A stretch of 64,000 bases of DNA from Arthrobacter castelli DSM 16402 (GTDB taxonomy: Bacteria; Actinomycetota; Actinomycetes; Actinomycetales; Micrococcaceae). Shown in pieces: positions 59,227 through 64,000 of the stretch. The stretch covers positions 62,001-126,000 of the forward strand of contig NZ_AUMN01000001.1 in assembly GCF_000430705.1 (NCBI RefSeq). Direction: 5' to 3'. The notes under the pieces were generated by a model. It searched no databases. It saw nothing but the letters and a program-made list of their open reading frames with translations, and was not told where the DNA came from. The position numbers and the translations under genes are program-made. How positions within the stretch are numbered: the first letter of the stretch is position 1; each line of letters begins with the position of its first letter.

Positions 59227-59557
59227 TCCGCTTCCGCGGCAGCGCTTATAAAGTACGACGCCGTTCCGCACCAGGTGGGTTTCCACCCTGGGCGCGGAGC
59301 GGCGTTTGCTTAGTGAGTGCAGAGATAGTGGCCGTAGAGAGCTGTGGGGCAAGTGCTGTTGCGCTGCACTCAGGGCTTGAGGGTAGCGGGCGATGGCGGA
59401 AGCGGTACAGCCCGGTCAGGCAGTCGCGGATGGCGGAGCCATGGACCCGGCAAGAGGGCAGAACCGAAGGCTGGATCCACTTCTTCGTTACCAGTTCGTT
59501 ATCTTGGATTCGTACTTTGTTCGAATAATGTCGGTGGTCGGTTCTAGTGTTGGTGGT
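59227..59557. other. Intergenic region with terminator, no gene seen
   Basis: About 330 nt between the ABC operon and the DUF222 gene. The first part holds the terminator at 59258-59307. The rest (59310-59540) has no convincing gene; the frame of the DUF222 gene is open here but its translation lacks protein-like character. The last 18 nt repeat the sequence before the truncated DUF222 copy. Confidence 0.5.
59258..59307 (+). terminator. Strong hairpin terminator after the TrpX-type ABC operon
   Basis: ACGCCGTTCCGC (59258-59269) pairs with GCGGAGCGGCGT (59294-59305) with one mismatch, and the inside can fold further. TTT follows (59305-59307). It lies 31 nt past the ATPase stop. Confidence 0.65.
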
Positions 59558-61471
59558 ATGGAGAACAGGCCAGTTGCAGCAGTGGTTTCGGCGCCGGGGT
59601 CCCCGGCGTCGGGCGGCGGCATGCCTGTGGGCGCTGCCGCTGCCGGCGGCGTGCCGGCCGGCTCTGAATCTGATTTGGTCGCTGAGGTCACGGCCGCGTT
59701 GCGGGACTTCTCTCGCCGGGCGGTGTCGGGCCAATCCGGTGTGGTCACGGCGGAGGCTGCGGCGCGGTTCGCGGCCTCGGTTGAGGAGCTCTCGCGGACG
59801 GTGGAGCATTTGCAGGTGGTGGCCGCGGGCCGGTTGGAGCAGGTCCGCGATGAGGCCGAAACATCGGGTACGGCTGATTGTTGGGTGACGCCGGAGGGGA
59901 AGCGGCAGGGCGAGTACCGCAATACTGCCGATTATTTGCGTGACGTGGTGCGGGTGAACCGTCCCGAGGCAGCCAAGCGGCTCAAGTTGGCGGCCGGGTT
60001 GTTGCCCTCGGCCGGGTTGGCGGGTCAGCCGGTGCCGCCGGCTCATGAGCAGTTGGCGGTGGCGATGGCCGACGGGCACGTCCCCGCCGCCGCGGCAACG
60101 GCGGCGACCACCGCGTTGGGTAAGGCCAAGGCTACCGGGGCTGGCCCGGAGACGGTTGAGGCGATGGAACAATCACTGGCCCAGGTCGCCGCCGAGCGGG
60201 ATCCGCAGTTCGTGACGGTGGCTGCCGCTCGGTGGTTGAACCATATCGACCAGGACGGGCCCGAACCCTCCGAGGCCGAACTACGCCACCGGCAAGGAGT
60301 ATTCCTACGCGGTAAACGCTCCGGGTTGCACCGGATGGAGATCCTGGCCACCGACGACCAATACGAACATCTCATCACTACCATGAACGCTGCCGCCAAC
60401 CCCCGCGCCCGCGGCTGCCACCCCGACACAGGCAACACGACCACTACGGGTTCGACCCGAAACGGCGCCACCGCCAGCCGTGCGGGAAGTAGCGCCGGAA
60501 GCGCCACCGGCACAGGTGCAAGCGAAGCCATCGCCACTAACGGCACGGGGAGCATCAGTAGCGCGGGTAGTACCGATGGCGCCGACGAAACCAGCGGCAG
60601 CCAGTATGCCAGTGCCGGCGGTTCCACCGCCGTTGGCGCCAGCTCCGGCGCGTCCGCCACCGGTTCGGCAAGCTCGGCCCACACCAGCACTGGCTCGGAT
60701 GCCGACGATCGTGATGGTGGTGCCGCCGGTGGTGTTCCGGTGCCGGCGGCGGCGATCGATAATCGGGCGGTGGCGCAGAAACGCCTCGACGGGCTCGTCG
60801 CCGCCTGCGACGCCGCCCTGGCCACCGGCGGACTACCCGACACCGGCGGACACCGGCCCCAAATCATGGCCGTCATCGACTACCAGGAACTCCTGGCCCA
60901 CCTCACCAACGCAACAGACCACCCAGACCGTGACGGCAGCCCCGACCGGGCGGGAACAGTCTTCAGCCCGAGCCGACACGGCAGCGGTACTGGTACCGGC
61001 GGGACCGGCTCCTACGTGTTCTCCGGTCCCGTCCACGCCGGCAACATCCGCCAATTGGCTTGCGACGCCGAGATCATCCCGGCCGTGCTGGCCGGCAACG
61101 GCCAAATCCTCGACCTCGGCACCGGCCGACGGATCTTCCCACCGAACCTGCGCCGGGCCCTCGTCGCCCGAGACGGCGGATGCGCCTTCCCCGGCTGCAC
61201 CATGCCCGCACCCTGGACCGAGGCTCACCACATTCGATACGCCAGCGACGACGGAGAGACATCCACTGACAACGGGTGCCTGCTATGCAGCTACCACCAC
61301 CACCTGATCCACAAGGAAAAGTGGGTCATCACCGTCCGCCACGGGATCCCCTGGTTCACCCCGCCGGGCTACGTGGACCCCGACCGGAAACCGATCCGCA
61401 ACCACTACTTCAACCGCACACCCCACCGAGGCCACCAACAAACCAGCATCGAGTTCGCCGACACCGGATAA
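59558..61471 (+). CDS. DUF222/HNH endonuclease domain protein
   Basis: A 637-residue protein of the actinobacterial DUF222-HNH family, often repeated in a genome. A helical DUF222 domain spans about 30-280. Residues 288-392 are an unusually long Ser/Thr/Gly/Ala low-complexity stretch. The C-terminal HNH nuclease motif begins CAFPGCTMPAPWTEAHHI (about 541), with the later Asn and His in NGCLLCSYHHHLIHK. The role is unproven; some authors link them to mobile DNA. ATG 59558 is chosen because the upstream 18 nt are shared with the truncated copy at 40089; ATG 59528 is possible. Confidence 0.85.
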   Translation: MENRPVAAVVSAPGSPASGGGMPVGAAAAGGVPAGSESDLVAEVTAALRDFSRRAVSGQSGVVTAEAAARFAASVEELSRTVEHLQVVAAGRLEQVRDEAETSGTADCWVTPEGKRQGEYRNTADYLRDVVRVNRPEAAKRLKLAAGLLPSAGLAGQPVPPAHEQLAVAMADGHVPAAAATAATTALGKAKATGAGPETVEAMEQSLAQVAAERDPQFVTVAAARWLNHIDQDGPEPSEAELRHRQGVFLRGKRSGLHRMEILATDDQYEHLITTMNAAANPRARGCHPDTGNTTTTGSTRNGATASRAGSSAGSATGTGASEAIATNGTGSISSAGSTDGADETSGSQYASAGGSTAVGASSGASATGSASSAHTSTGSDADDRDGGAAGGVPVPAAAIDNRAVAQKRLDGLVAACDAALATGGLPDTGGHRPQIMAVIDYQELLAHLTNATDHPDRDGSPDRAGTVFSPSRHGSGTGTGGTGSYVFSGPVHAGNIRQLACDAEIIPAVLAGNGQILDLGTGRRIFPPNLRRALVARDGGCAFPGCTMPAPWTEAHHIRYASDDGETSTDNGCLLCSYHHHLIHKEKWVITVRHGIPWFTPPGYVDPDRKPIRNHYFNRTPHRGHQQTSIEFADTG

Positions 61472-61575
61472 ACCCCCTGGCGCTGCGCGCGCTGCGTTGG
61501 CCCGGGCGGTGCCGAAAGTTAACGCCTGAAATCCGGCCTCCGATCTCACGTTTACCGATTGCAGTGCGTCTACCT

Positions 61576-61675: not shown

Positions 61676-62173
61676 ATGAAAACGCACACCACTATTGACT
61701 CGCCAATCGGGATGCTCACTCTGGTGAATACCGACGGCGTGCTCAGCGCTGCCTATATGGGCGAGCAAGCCCGGATGCCAAACCGCGATAGTTTCGGCTC
61801 GAGCACCAGCGCCGGTTTCGAAGCTGCGACAGAGCAATTGAATGAATACTTCGCCGGCGATCGACAGGAATTCTCCCTGCCGATGGCTCCGGAGGGCAGC
61901 CCTTTCCAGCAGCGGGTATGGCAGCTCCTCACGGAAATTCCCTACGGCCAGACCCGGACGTACGGGCAACTGGCGGACGAGTTGGGCAACCGGCACATCG
62001 TTCGTGCGGTGGGATCGGCGAACGGCAGAAATCCCATCAGTATTATTGTTCCGTGCCATCGAGTCATTGGCGCTGACGGTTCGCTGACCGGTTACGGCGG
62101 GGGACTGGAGAGGAAAAGGTTCCTGCTGGATTTGGAGAACCCCGCACGTACACATGAACCGGCGCTCTTCTAA
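61676..62173 (+). CDS. ogt: Methylated-DNA-[protein]-cysteine S-methyltransferase (Ogt), copy 1
   Basis: A 165-residue DNA repair protein that removes alkyl groups from O6-alkylguanine in a suicide reaction. The acceptor Cys is in IIVPCHRVIGADG, preceded by the helix-turn-helix/Arg-finger region YGQTRTYGQLADELGN and AVGSANGRNP. The start TIDSPIGMLTLV fits the family. GGAGGAC supports the ATG at 61676. It is the first of four overlapping or close genes: methyltransferase, sigma factor, methyltransferase, AlkB. Confidence 0.93.
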   Translation: MKTHTTIDSPIGMLTLVNTDGVLSAAYMGEQARMPNRDSFGSSTSAGFEAATEQLNEYFAGDRQEFSLPMAPEGSPFQQRVWQLLTEIPYGQTRTYGQLADELGNRHIVRAVGSANGRNPISIIVPCHRVIGADGSLTGYGGGLERKRFLLDLENPARTHEPALF

Positions 62174-62711
62174 CCGCATGGAGCCATCGCATATACCCAC
62201 GACGCCATCGCAGGCACCTACCGCGGCTGGTCTCGAGCCGTTCGAACACGTGGTCGCGGAGCACGGACGCACCGTCCTGCGTGTTTGCCGGGCGATCCTT
62301 GGACCGCACGAGGCGGAGGATGCCTGGTCGGAAACTTTCCTCGCGGCACTGCGCGCCTACCCTGAGCTCGATCCGAGCACGAATGTTCAGGCGTGGCTGG
62401 TCACTATTGCCAAGCGGAAGGCGATTGACCAGCGCCGCGCAGCGGCGCGGAACCCTGTACCGGTGAATTCTTTGCCCGATCAGCCCGGAGGCGCCGGAAT
62501 CCCGGATTCTCCTGACGGGCAGCTCTGGAAGGCCGTGGGCGCATTACCGCGAAAGCAACGGGAAGCGATCGCATATCACTATTTGGCGGGCATGCCTTAC
62601 ATCGAGGTGGCCGGACTGCTCGGCAACTCCGAGTCGGCCGCCCGGCGTGCCGCAGCCGATGGAATGAAGAATCTTCGAAGCAGTTACCAGGGAGCCAGAG
62701 ACGATGAGTGA
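62154..62711 (+). CDS. Sigma-70 family (ECF-like) RNA polymerase sigma factor
   Basis: A sigma factor of up to 185 residues. Region 2 is visible as EHGRTVLRVCRAILGPHEAEDAWSETF and VQAWLVTIAKRKAIDQRR, and region 4 as GALPRKQREAIAYHYLAGMPYIEVAGLLG. The start is ATG 62154 (overlapping the first methyltransferase) or 62178. It overlaps the second methyltransferase gene by 8 nt. No separate anti-sigma gene is visible. Being within a DNA alkylation repair operon, it may activate this operon upon damage, which is inference. Confidence 0.85.
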   Translation: MNRRSSNRMEPSHIPTTPSQAPTAAGLEPFEHVVAEHGRTVLRVCRAILGPHEAEDAWSETFLAALRAYPELDPSTNVQAWLVTIAKRKAIDQRRAAARNPVPVNSLPDQPGGAGIPDSPDGQLWKAVGALPRKQREAIAYHYLAGMPYIEVAGLLGNSESAARRAAADGMKNLRSSYQGARDDE

Positions 62712-63339
62712 CTTAGACGGTACCGCTAGGGACAGCTGGCAGGACCCTGACAGCGCAATCATCCGCCAATTGAGCGAGGACGACGACGTCAGCCGCCTCC
62801 ACGAGCGGCTGGCAGCCGCGGCCCAAAGCGCCGGTGTACTCGATGTTGCCTACGACACTGTTGATACACCTGTCGGCACACTTCTGCTGGCAACTACGGA
62901 AGAGGGGTTGGTCCGGGTTGCCTACCCGATCCAGGGCCATGATGCGGTGCTGGCACAACTGGCCTCGGACATCAGTCCACGGATTCTGCATGCCCCTGAG
63001 CAGCTCAGGGAGCCGACTCGCCAACTGGATGAGTACTTTGCGGGCCGCCGGAGACAGTTCGATTTGCAGCTGGACAACCGGCTCTCCCCGGGCTTCCGCC
63101 GGAGCGTGCTGTCGCAATTGCCGGGGATCGGCTATGGCAGCACTGTCAGTTATGGAGAGTTGGCGGCCATGGCGGGAAATCCCAAGGCGGCGCGCGCCGT
63201 CGGCACGGCCTGCGGCGCTAACCCGCTGCCCGTCGTCGTGCCCTGTCACAGGGTTGTCCGCTCTGACGGGTCAGCAGGCGGGTACGCCGGGGGGCCTGAA
63301 GCCAAGGAAGCCCTGCTGAAACTGGAAGGAGCTGCCTAG
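62704..63339 (+). CDS. Methylated-DNA-[protein]-cysteine S-methyltransferase (Ogt), copy 2 with N-terminal extension
   Basis: A 211-residue paralogue of copy 1. Residues 1-45 form an acidic helical extension (DPDSAIIRQLSEDDDVSRLH) not found in copy 1. The methyltransferase part starts at VAYDTVDTPVGTLLLAT and has the acceptor Cys in PVVVPCHRVVRSDGS. The start overlaps the sigma factor by 8 nt, so the two are made together. The acidic helix could bind the sigma factor, making this protein an alkylation-sensitive partner; that is a hypothesis. Confidence 0.9.
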   Translation: MSDLDGTARDSWQDPDSAIIRQLSEDDDVSRLHERLAAAAQSAGVLDVAYDTVDTPVGTLLLATTEEGLVRVAYPIQGHDAVLAQLASDISPRILHAPEQLREPTRQLDEYFAGRRRQFDLQLDNRLSPGFRRSVLSQLPGIGYGSTVSYGELAAMAGNPKAARAVGTACGANPLPVVVPCHRVVRSDGSAGGYAGGPEAKEALLKLEGAA

Positions 63340-63340
63340 G

Positions 63341-64000
63341 ATGAGCGGCATGCTGTTACCACGCGAACACAACGAGGTCGCACCAGGCGCGGTGCACGTG
63401 CCGGACTGGCTTGATGGCGCGGAACAACGACGGATCGTTGAGGCGTGCCGCCGCTGGGCGGTTGGCCCGGTACCGATGCGTTCCGCCCGTCTGCCAGGTG
63501 GCCGCCGGATGTCGGTCCAGACTGTTTGCCTGGGCTGGCATTGGCAACCGTACAAGTACAGCAGGACGGCCGACGACGCCGGGGGAGGGCAGGTTGCCGA
63601 GCTGCCGGAATGGATGGCTGAACTGGGGCGCAGGGCCGTGAGCGCCGCCTACCGGGACGAGGATGCGGGACGGGAATATTGTCCGGACACTGCCCTGATT
63701 AACTACTACGACGACGCGGCTGCCATGGGGATGCACCAGGACAAGGACGAGAAAACCGATGCCCCAGTCGTTTCGCTCAGCATCGGTGACAATTGCGTGT
63801 TCAGGTTCGGAAACACAGAAACGCGGACCAAGCCATACACCGACGTCGAACTCCACTCCGGAGACCTGTTCGTGTTCGGCGGGCCCAGCCGGTTCGCCTA
63901 CCATGGCGTGCCGAAAACGTACCCGGGGACGTCGGATCCGGAGTGCGGGATGAAACAAGGGAGGATCAATATCACCATGCGCAGAACCGGCATGGAGTGA
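63341..64000 (+). CDS. alkB: AlkB-type alpha-ketoglutarate-dependent dioxygenase
   Basis: A 219-residue Fe(II)/2-oxoglutarate dioxygenase that reverses N1-methyladenine and N3-methylcytosine damage. The iron ligands are MHQDKDE (HxD) and RFAYHGVPK (His), and the 2-oxoglutarate-binding Arg is in GRINITMRRTG. ALINYYDDAAAMG matches the family's substrate loop. It starts 1 nt after the second methyltransferase stop, and its stop is the last codon of the window, so the operon could extend further. Confidence 0.93.
   Translation: MSGMLLPREHNEVAPGAVHVPDWLDGAEQRRIVEACRRWAVGPVPMRSARLPGGRRMSVQTVCLGWHWQPYKYSRTADDAGGGQVAELPEWMAELGRRAVSAAYRDEDAGREYCPDTALINYYDDAAAMGMHQDKDEKTDAPVVSLSIGDNCVFRFGNTETRTKPYTDVELHSGDLFVFGGPSRFAYHGVPKTYPGTSDPECGMKQGRINITMRRTGME

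Follow-up and report, generated by a model that had tools for sequence, protein, structure and literature searches.

A sigma factor and an adjoining methyltransferase as candidate components of an Ada-free alkylation response in Arthrobacter castelli

Described systems and the operon of A. castelli

In Escherichia coli, the Ada regulon comprises a 6-O-methylguanine DNA methyltransferase (MGMT), AlkB and AlkA under one alkylation regulator. In the zinc anti-sigma (ZAS) systems, the sigma factor is released through a modified cysteine. In the sections of a 2022 review that concern us here, ZAS systems are presented as including SigH and SigE of Mycobacterium tuberculosis, and ECF122 as a group of extracytoplasmic function (ECF) sigma factors without anti-sigma factors, with MGMTs in their neighbourhood and with an uncharacterised mechanism (PMC8999054). 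In Caulobacter, according to the passages of another paper that deal with Cada2, methylation of the PCHR cysteine of the PF01035 domain switches on the alkylation regulon (PMC10957082). The present work deals with an operon of an ECF sigma factor, two MGMTs and AlkB from Arthrobacter castelli DSM 16402, located at the end of a stretch of 64,000 nucleotides (RefSeq assembly GCF_000430705.1, contig NZ_AUMN01000001.1, positions 62,001 to 126,000), which is called the window. This operon may constitute a self-contained Ada-free alkylation response, in which the sigma factor reads its own promoter and the second methyltransferase (MGMT2) acts as brake and sensor. We assign this reading a probability of about 0.5.

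Four genes on the plus strand occupy the final 2.3 kb of the window, and their families were all confirmed by Pfam and NCBIfam:

61676..62173, plus strand: MGMT1, first gene, an Ogt-like suicide methyltransferase with intact PCHR (165 aa from ATG; PF02870 and PF01035)
62154..62711, plus strand: ECF sigma factor with regions 2 and 4 and an acidic HEAEDAWSETF in region 2 (185 aa; Sigma70_r2 and Sigma70_r4_2)
62704..63339, plus strand: MGMT2, a suicide methyltransferase with a sigma-associated N-terminal helix and Cys181 (211 aa; PF02870 and PF01035)
63341..64000, plus strand: AlkB-type 2-oxoglutarate/Fe(II) dioxygenase, last gene (219 aa; PF13532)

The initial annotation had described two methyltransferases around an ECF-like sigma factor, followed by AlkB, all close or overlapping, and the open reading frames and family searches bear this out. 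MGMT1 and the sigma gene overlap by 20 nt, AlkB begins 1 nt past MGMT2, and the 8-nt overlap claimed for the sigma gene and MGMT2 is confirmed by their coordinates (MGMT2 starts at 62704, the sigma gene ends at 62711). The absence of Ada was also correctly stated: the Ada zinc domain PF02805 has no match anywhere in the host genome (4.59 Mb, 49 contigs, 98.95% complete), and an Ada gene elsewhere in it was rejected on this ground. As for the claim that there is no classical anti-sigma gene, none was seen among the neighbouring open reading frames, of which the downstream ones were not part of the scan, and no genome-wide search for anti-sigma families was made. A tRNA-Arg gene on the minus strand lies directly past AlkB (L004:6003-6078, with AlkB ending at L004:6001), indicating that the operon is complete and that AlkB is its last gene.

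What the operon has in common with the E. coli response is one regulator over an MGMT, AlkB and, among relatives, AlkA. However, PF02805 is absent here and the promoter is apparently read by a sigma factor and not by an activator. As in ZAS systems, the ECF sigma factor would have a soluble partner that answers a cytoplasmic chemical signal, but MGMT2 has no anti-sigma domain in Pfam; a zinc or class I anti-sigma factor was rejected for it because searches up to E 1 give only PF02870 and PF01035. With Cada2, the system has in common an alkylation regulon with direct-repair genes, and the PCHR cysteine, which is the switch in Cada2, is a candidate for that role here (PMC10957082). While Cada2 possesses its own DNA-binding domains, MGMT1 and MGMT2 are composed of PF02870 and PF01035 only, and promoter recognition would fall to the sigma factor, a separate protein. 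A Cada2-type regulator was rejected, because no DNA-binding regulatory domain is fused to PF01035 in either protein.

The closest described group is ECF122, to which this sigma factor is likened by description only: both are ECF sigma factors that adjoin an MGMT, and the group lacks a known anti-sigma factor, as none was seen among the neighbouring open reading frames here (PMC8999054). The A. castelli sigma factor has regions 2 and 4 (Sigma70_r2 and Sigma70_r4_2) and a conserved methyltransferase neighbour (MGMT2 lies downstream in 50/52 genomes of the class with the sigma factor). Since the sigma-MGMT neighbourhood is already in print, the pairing is no discovery. The ECF122 passage of the review gives no promoter, regulon or methyltransferase helix, whereas all three are described here. 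In the accessible parts of the open-access literature we found none of the three described, and no account of the mechanism of an ECF sigma-methyltransferase pair was recognised.

Pairing of the sigma factor and MGMT2 in actinobacteria

MGMT2 was searched for in 59 relatives, in 394 class genomes (78 with matches at E 1e-40 or better) and in a genome collection from which 80 loci were kept, and extra stretches were fetched. These loci were reduced to 125 distinct MGMT2-family loci, leaving out those with a best MGMT2 tblastn match below 110 bits, the window copies L001, L002 and L004 (the window is represented by L005) and duplicates sharing the final 200 bases of their aligned stretch. In 90 of the 125, MGMT2 directly follows a sigma gene of this kind. 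Hosts of the pair include Rhodococcus, Streptomyces sp. WMMB 322, Saccharopolyspora, Amycolatopsis, Oerskovia, Leifsonia, Microlunatus and Mycolicibacter. The start codon of MGMT2 closest to the sigma stop overlaps that stop in 88/90 of these sigma-linked loci, by 4 nt in 75 of them.

Because the 125 loci were found via MGMT2, they cannot show that the sigma factor keeps MGMT2, and a reverse search was therefore made from the sigma factor. At E 1e-20, it is present in 52 of the 394 class genomes, and MGMT2 is directly downstream in 50 of them. The exceptions are G167, where the sigma match is near a contig edge and MGMT2 is on a different contig, and G361, whose sigma factor is divergent (38% identity) and where MGMT2 has no match at E 1e-40. 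Among the 59 relatives, 27 carry the sigma factor and 26 of these have MGMT2 adjoining it; in the 27th (G051) MGMT2 is on a different contig. This search strengthens the pairing and has no bearing on binding.

The remaining genes of the neighbourhood are less constant. In the 90 sigma-linked loci, MGMT1 is found upstream in at least 29 and AlkB downstream in at least 18, together with Tag in at least 9, AlkA in at least 9 and a short-chain dehydrogenase in at least 6; all these counts are minimum values, as the flank available for many loci is no longer than about 1.5 kb. Other genes vary while MGMT2 stays, so the constant pair is formed by the sigma factor and MGMT2. This difference between MGMT2 on one side and MGMT1 and AlkB on the other bears on a possible alternative, namely that MGMT2 is a repair enzyme only, that the sigma factor is controlled by its level alone (through autoregulation of its promoter together with a further input, proteolysis or another regulator) and that the gene order reflects co-expression. 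The constancy of MGMT2 argues against such a purely enzymatic role, which we regard as somewhat unlikely.

Ada was not found in 44 of the 59 relatives searched. It is rarer with the operon, being present in 3/27 sigma-positive relatives vs 12/32 of the others (Fisher p 0.034, uncorrected for ancestry).

The sigma-associated promoter and its regulon

The promoter was discovered by counting all spaced 5-mer pairs in the regions upstream of the 90 sigma-linked operons. The pair CTCAC-N17-CGTCT occurs in 40 of these regions, whereas in three shuffled sets the most frequent pair reached only 6-8. The refined pattern is GA(C/T)CTCACGTT-N13-GCGTCTAC, and the window carries the bipartite promoter CTCACGTT-N13-GCGTCTAC at 61545-61573, upstream of MGMT1:

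61545..61552, plus strand: -35-like element CTCACGTT of the sigma-associated promoter (dyad count and held-out test; score of the window's own site 35.1)
61566..61573, plus strand: predicted -10-like element GCGTCTAC of the same promoter (dyad count, matrix and held-out test)

For MGMT1, ATG 61676 is favoured over TTG 61559 as the probable start, since the latter would fall within this promoter.

A first matrix recognised 75/90 sigma-linked loci vs 2/35 others. However, it had been trained on the same loci and this count is partly circular; for this reason a held-out test was used instead, in which a matrix built from 17 sites in the 21 sigma-linked loci of the genome collection was run on the remaining loci, the 99% threshold being derived from shuffled sequence. 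The promoter was recovered in 54/69 sigma-linked loci, that is, in 54/62 of those whose MGMT2 carries the N-terminal helix described below and in 0/7 of those with a divergent sigma factor and no helix. Only 2/35 MGMT2 relatives without an adjacent sigma gene passed. Regarding the eight failures with a helix, L027 and L132 are truncated where the contig stops, L016 is slightly under the threshold, and in L135, L136, L137, L144 and L145 the site stands instead before the next gene. One of the two sigma-less passes (L011) belongs to G051, whose sigma factor (54% identity) is on another contig, so sigma factor, promoter and helix-bearing MGMT2 persist there though they are apart in that assembly. 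The other is L154 from G136, a genome that lacks an orthologue of the sigma factor (best match 29%). In L147 and L149, two back-to-back promoter sites lie upstream of the sigma gene, one directed toward it and the other, on the opposite strand, toward a divergent MGMT1; by their arrangement, these sites constitute a shared control region.

In the own genome of the operon, a scan with one mismatch allowed gave 169 sites vs 224 in the reversed control; being below that control, it was set aside and only the two exact sites were used. One of these exact matches to CTCAC-N17-CGTCT stands in front of the operon, the other in front of a short-chain dehydrogenase gene on contig C28:

L206:696-1430, minus strand (G000, contig C28): short-chain dehydrogenase (PF00106) behind a sigma-type promoter, the sole exact site outside the operon

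Orthologues of the dehydrogenase were detected in 25/394 class genomes at E 1e-65, and the promoter precedes them, about 110 bases upstream of the first motif of the gene, in 8/8 genomes with the sigma operon and in 0/17 without it; a search at E 1e-20 gave no sigma factor in any of these 17. Within one genus, six loci have the dehydrogenase after MGMT2 and behind such a site. In two of the eight genomes (G000 and G113) dehydrogenase and operon are on different contigs.

The longer word CTCAC-N17-CGTCTAC has 28 exact sites in the 59 relatives vs 17 in the reversed control. Behind 15 of these sites there are MGMT, sigma or Tag/AlkA genes. The remaining 13 look mostly background-like, although L239 and L255 score 24.7 and 22.3 in the absence of such genes. 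In single relatives, the promoter is found before Tag and AlkA (G001), before a lone MGMT1 (G028) and before a lone MGMT2 (G051). Thus, comparison shows that the sigma subfamily goes with a promoter sequence that precedes its own operon, the dehydrogenase gene and, in single relatives, Tag/AlkA and lone MGMTs, and the position of the promoter before the operon indicates autoregulation. An Ada-free adaptive response had been proposed in the initial annotation; as an alkylation response under the sigma factor that the operon itself encodes, it appears well supported by these comparisons, since promoter and regulon go with the sigma factor and PF02805 is absent.

A further observation concerns L046, where a second site of the sigma promoter lies directly 5' of another gene, 2919 bases before MGMT2. 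This gene resembles that of a flavin reductase-like FMN-binding protein and may encode such a protein.

The sigma factor could also answer a different stress, such as reactive electrophiles or oxidative stress, the methyltransferases being part of a broad repair set. The dehydrogenase of the regulon would fit this explanation, as would the motif-bearing gene of L046 if it encodes a flavin reductase. However, the other genes behind the promoter (MGMT1, MGMT2, AlkB, Tag and AlkA) make up a direct alkylation-repair set, and a different stress is highly improbable.

MGMT2 as a candidate brake and damage sensor

MGMT2 begins with an extension of 48 residues, in which a variable start is followed by a helix ending in L46-D47:

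62779..62832, plus strand: predicted N-terminal helix of MGMT2, residues 26-43 (21-sequence alignment and AlphaFold2)

The extension had been described in the initial annotation as acidic, which is true of the MGMT2 of the window. However, acidity is not a trait of the family (net D+E-K-R before the helix has a median of 2 and a range of -1 to 6 in the 90 sigma-linked loci), and the conserved part is the helix that follows. In 21 aligned sequences the helix shows the pattern L..RL...A, in which L36 and A40 are invariant and L32 and R35 nearly invariant. An AlphaFold2 model of MGMT2 alone, built from 21 sequences, contains helices at residues 15-22 and 26-43. Its predicted local distance difference test (pLDDT) values are 92-98 in the core blocks, 62, 80 and 87 in the 10-residue blocks over residues 21-50, and about 50 before them.

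According to a third, anchored definition, the helix is present in 83/90 sigma-linked loci vs 3/35 other loci. Two earlier definitions gave 66/90 vs 1/35 and 71/90 vs 5/35, respectively, and with the second one the rate in shuffled residues was 0.08. The largest set of sigma-less MGMT2 proteins, from genus g77, reads as beginning at the core. The seven helix-less sigma-linked loci have sigma factors with 26-42% identity and the promoter in 0/7, indicating that sigma subfamily, promoter and helix go together. These seven divergent sigma-MGMT pairs (L031, L033, L158, L162, L170, L176 and L183) perhaps represent a second, differently controlled system.

The best fold match of MGMT2 is the Ogt of M. 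tuberculosis (PDB 4bhb and 4wx9), with a TM-score of 0.86 normalised by the 165 residues of 4bhb. The catalytic fold is shared by both proteins, but the sequence match begins at MGMT2 residue 49 and the helix-bearing extension remains outside it. PF02870 and PF01035 with the PCHR cysteine are found in MGMT1 and MGMT2, and the presence of this cysteine led us to reject an alkyltransferase-like (ATL) protein for both. The host genome has one more PF01035 protein, an ATL-like protein of 124 aa that lacks the PCHR cysteine and reads SAPWWRV in this region (L003:1483-1857, plus strand; G000, contig C4). The suicide PCHR cysteine is retained in 90/90 sigma-linked loci (87 by pattern and three read as exceptions). 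As for the sigma factor, an acidic (E/D)DAW motif is present in region 2 of 20/20 aligned sequences, and a protein that keeps this motif looks competent, not inactive by itself.

On this basis, a mechanism can be proposed, along the lines of the model in the initial annotation, where the second methyltransferase would hold the sigma factor until its cysteine is alkylated. The sigma factor would read the CTCACGTT-N13-GCGTCTAC promoter in a positive loop, and unmethylated MGMT2 would hold it by means of the N-terminal helix. On taking an alkyl group from DNA onto Cys181, MGMT2 would change shape or be degraded and free the sigma factor, allowing expression of the operon. Once the lesions are gone, fresh unmethylated MGMT2 would build up and silence the sigma factor again, and MGMT2 would thus be both a repair enzyme and a one-shot damage counter. 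MGMT2 is inferred to be the brake because it is the constant partner, carries the sigma-associated helix and keeps its cysteine throughout, because the sigma factor seems competent, and because Caulobacter offers the precedent of a cysteine switch. It is plausibly a good candidate for the sigma factor's brake and damage sensor. The odds are about even that it would hold the sigma factor by the helix and free it when alkylated. The fuller claim, that MGMT2 is an anti-sigma factor whose self-methylation frees the sigma factor and whose resynthesis resets it, lesions being counted by spent repair molecules, is tentative, its chances being a little short of even.

Different results weigh against the proposed response and its brake. 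With respect to the regulon, six of the eight genomes with the dehydrogenase promoter belong to one genus in which the gene is linked to the operon, the promoter was not found at Tag in the own genome, and three of the 27 sigma-positive relatives have Ada as well. With respect to the helix, its definition was refined after inspection of the misses (shifted alignment positions), and the final counts had not been preset; moreover, it is present in two genomes without an orthologous sigma factor (L151/G170 and L154/G136). In a covariation analysis of 79 sigma-MGMT2 pairs (effective number 55), the top pair had a z of 7.7 vs 7.7-10.3 in five permutations, and helix columns made up 0.22 of the top 1% vs 0.18-0.27 in permuted sets. 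To evaluate correlated evolution, a quick tree was built from 124 rows of the MGMT2 core and the second helix definition was used; 14 sigma changes, 20 helix changes and only three independent sigma contrasts on well-supported branches gave no significance, and the association of helix and sigma factor is largely shared ancestry. Finally, the described alkylation switches, Cada2 and E. coli Ada, are activators and not brakes in the parts of PMC10957082 that treat them.

Some of these results are those that a repair enzyme without regulatory function would leave: the survival of the helix without the sigma factor, and the absence of sigma-MGMT2 covariation above the permutations. The invariance, in 21 sequences, of the PCHR region with its catalytic cysteine and of many positions in the core of MGMT2 fits such an enzyme as well. 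However, a role restricted to repair leaves unexplained why a sigma-associated helix is missing from most sigma-less relatives. The precedents point in another direction, in which MGMT2 is a positive partner that, when alkylated, binds and activates the sigma factor or RNA polymerase, like methylated Ada or Cada2. All the known switches made from these domains are activators in the relevant text of PMC10957082, and the conservation of helix and cysteine is equally compatible with this possibility. It is nevertheless quite unlikely in our estimation, since the acidic region-2 motif in 20/20 sigma factors would call for a brake rather than a helper, an argument that is itself an inference.

The promoter defined here, the small regulon that reaches a gene beyond the operon, and the named candidate brake with its helix and cysteine make Ada-free alkylation sensing directly testable. 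If a repair enzyme is indeed the brake, this would be a new way of controlling a sigma factor, and a third design of the adaptive response, beside Ada and Cada2, would exist across many actinobacterial families.

Just 5' of the operon, at 59393-61471 of the window, there is a gene of the DUF222/HNH endonuclease type whose middle part is repetitive and rich in Thr, Ser and Gly.

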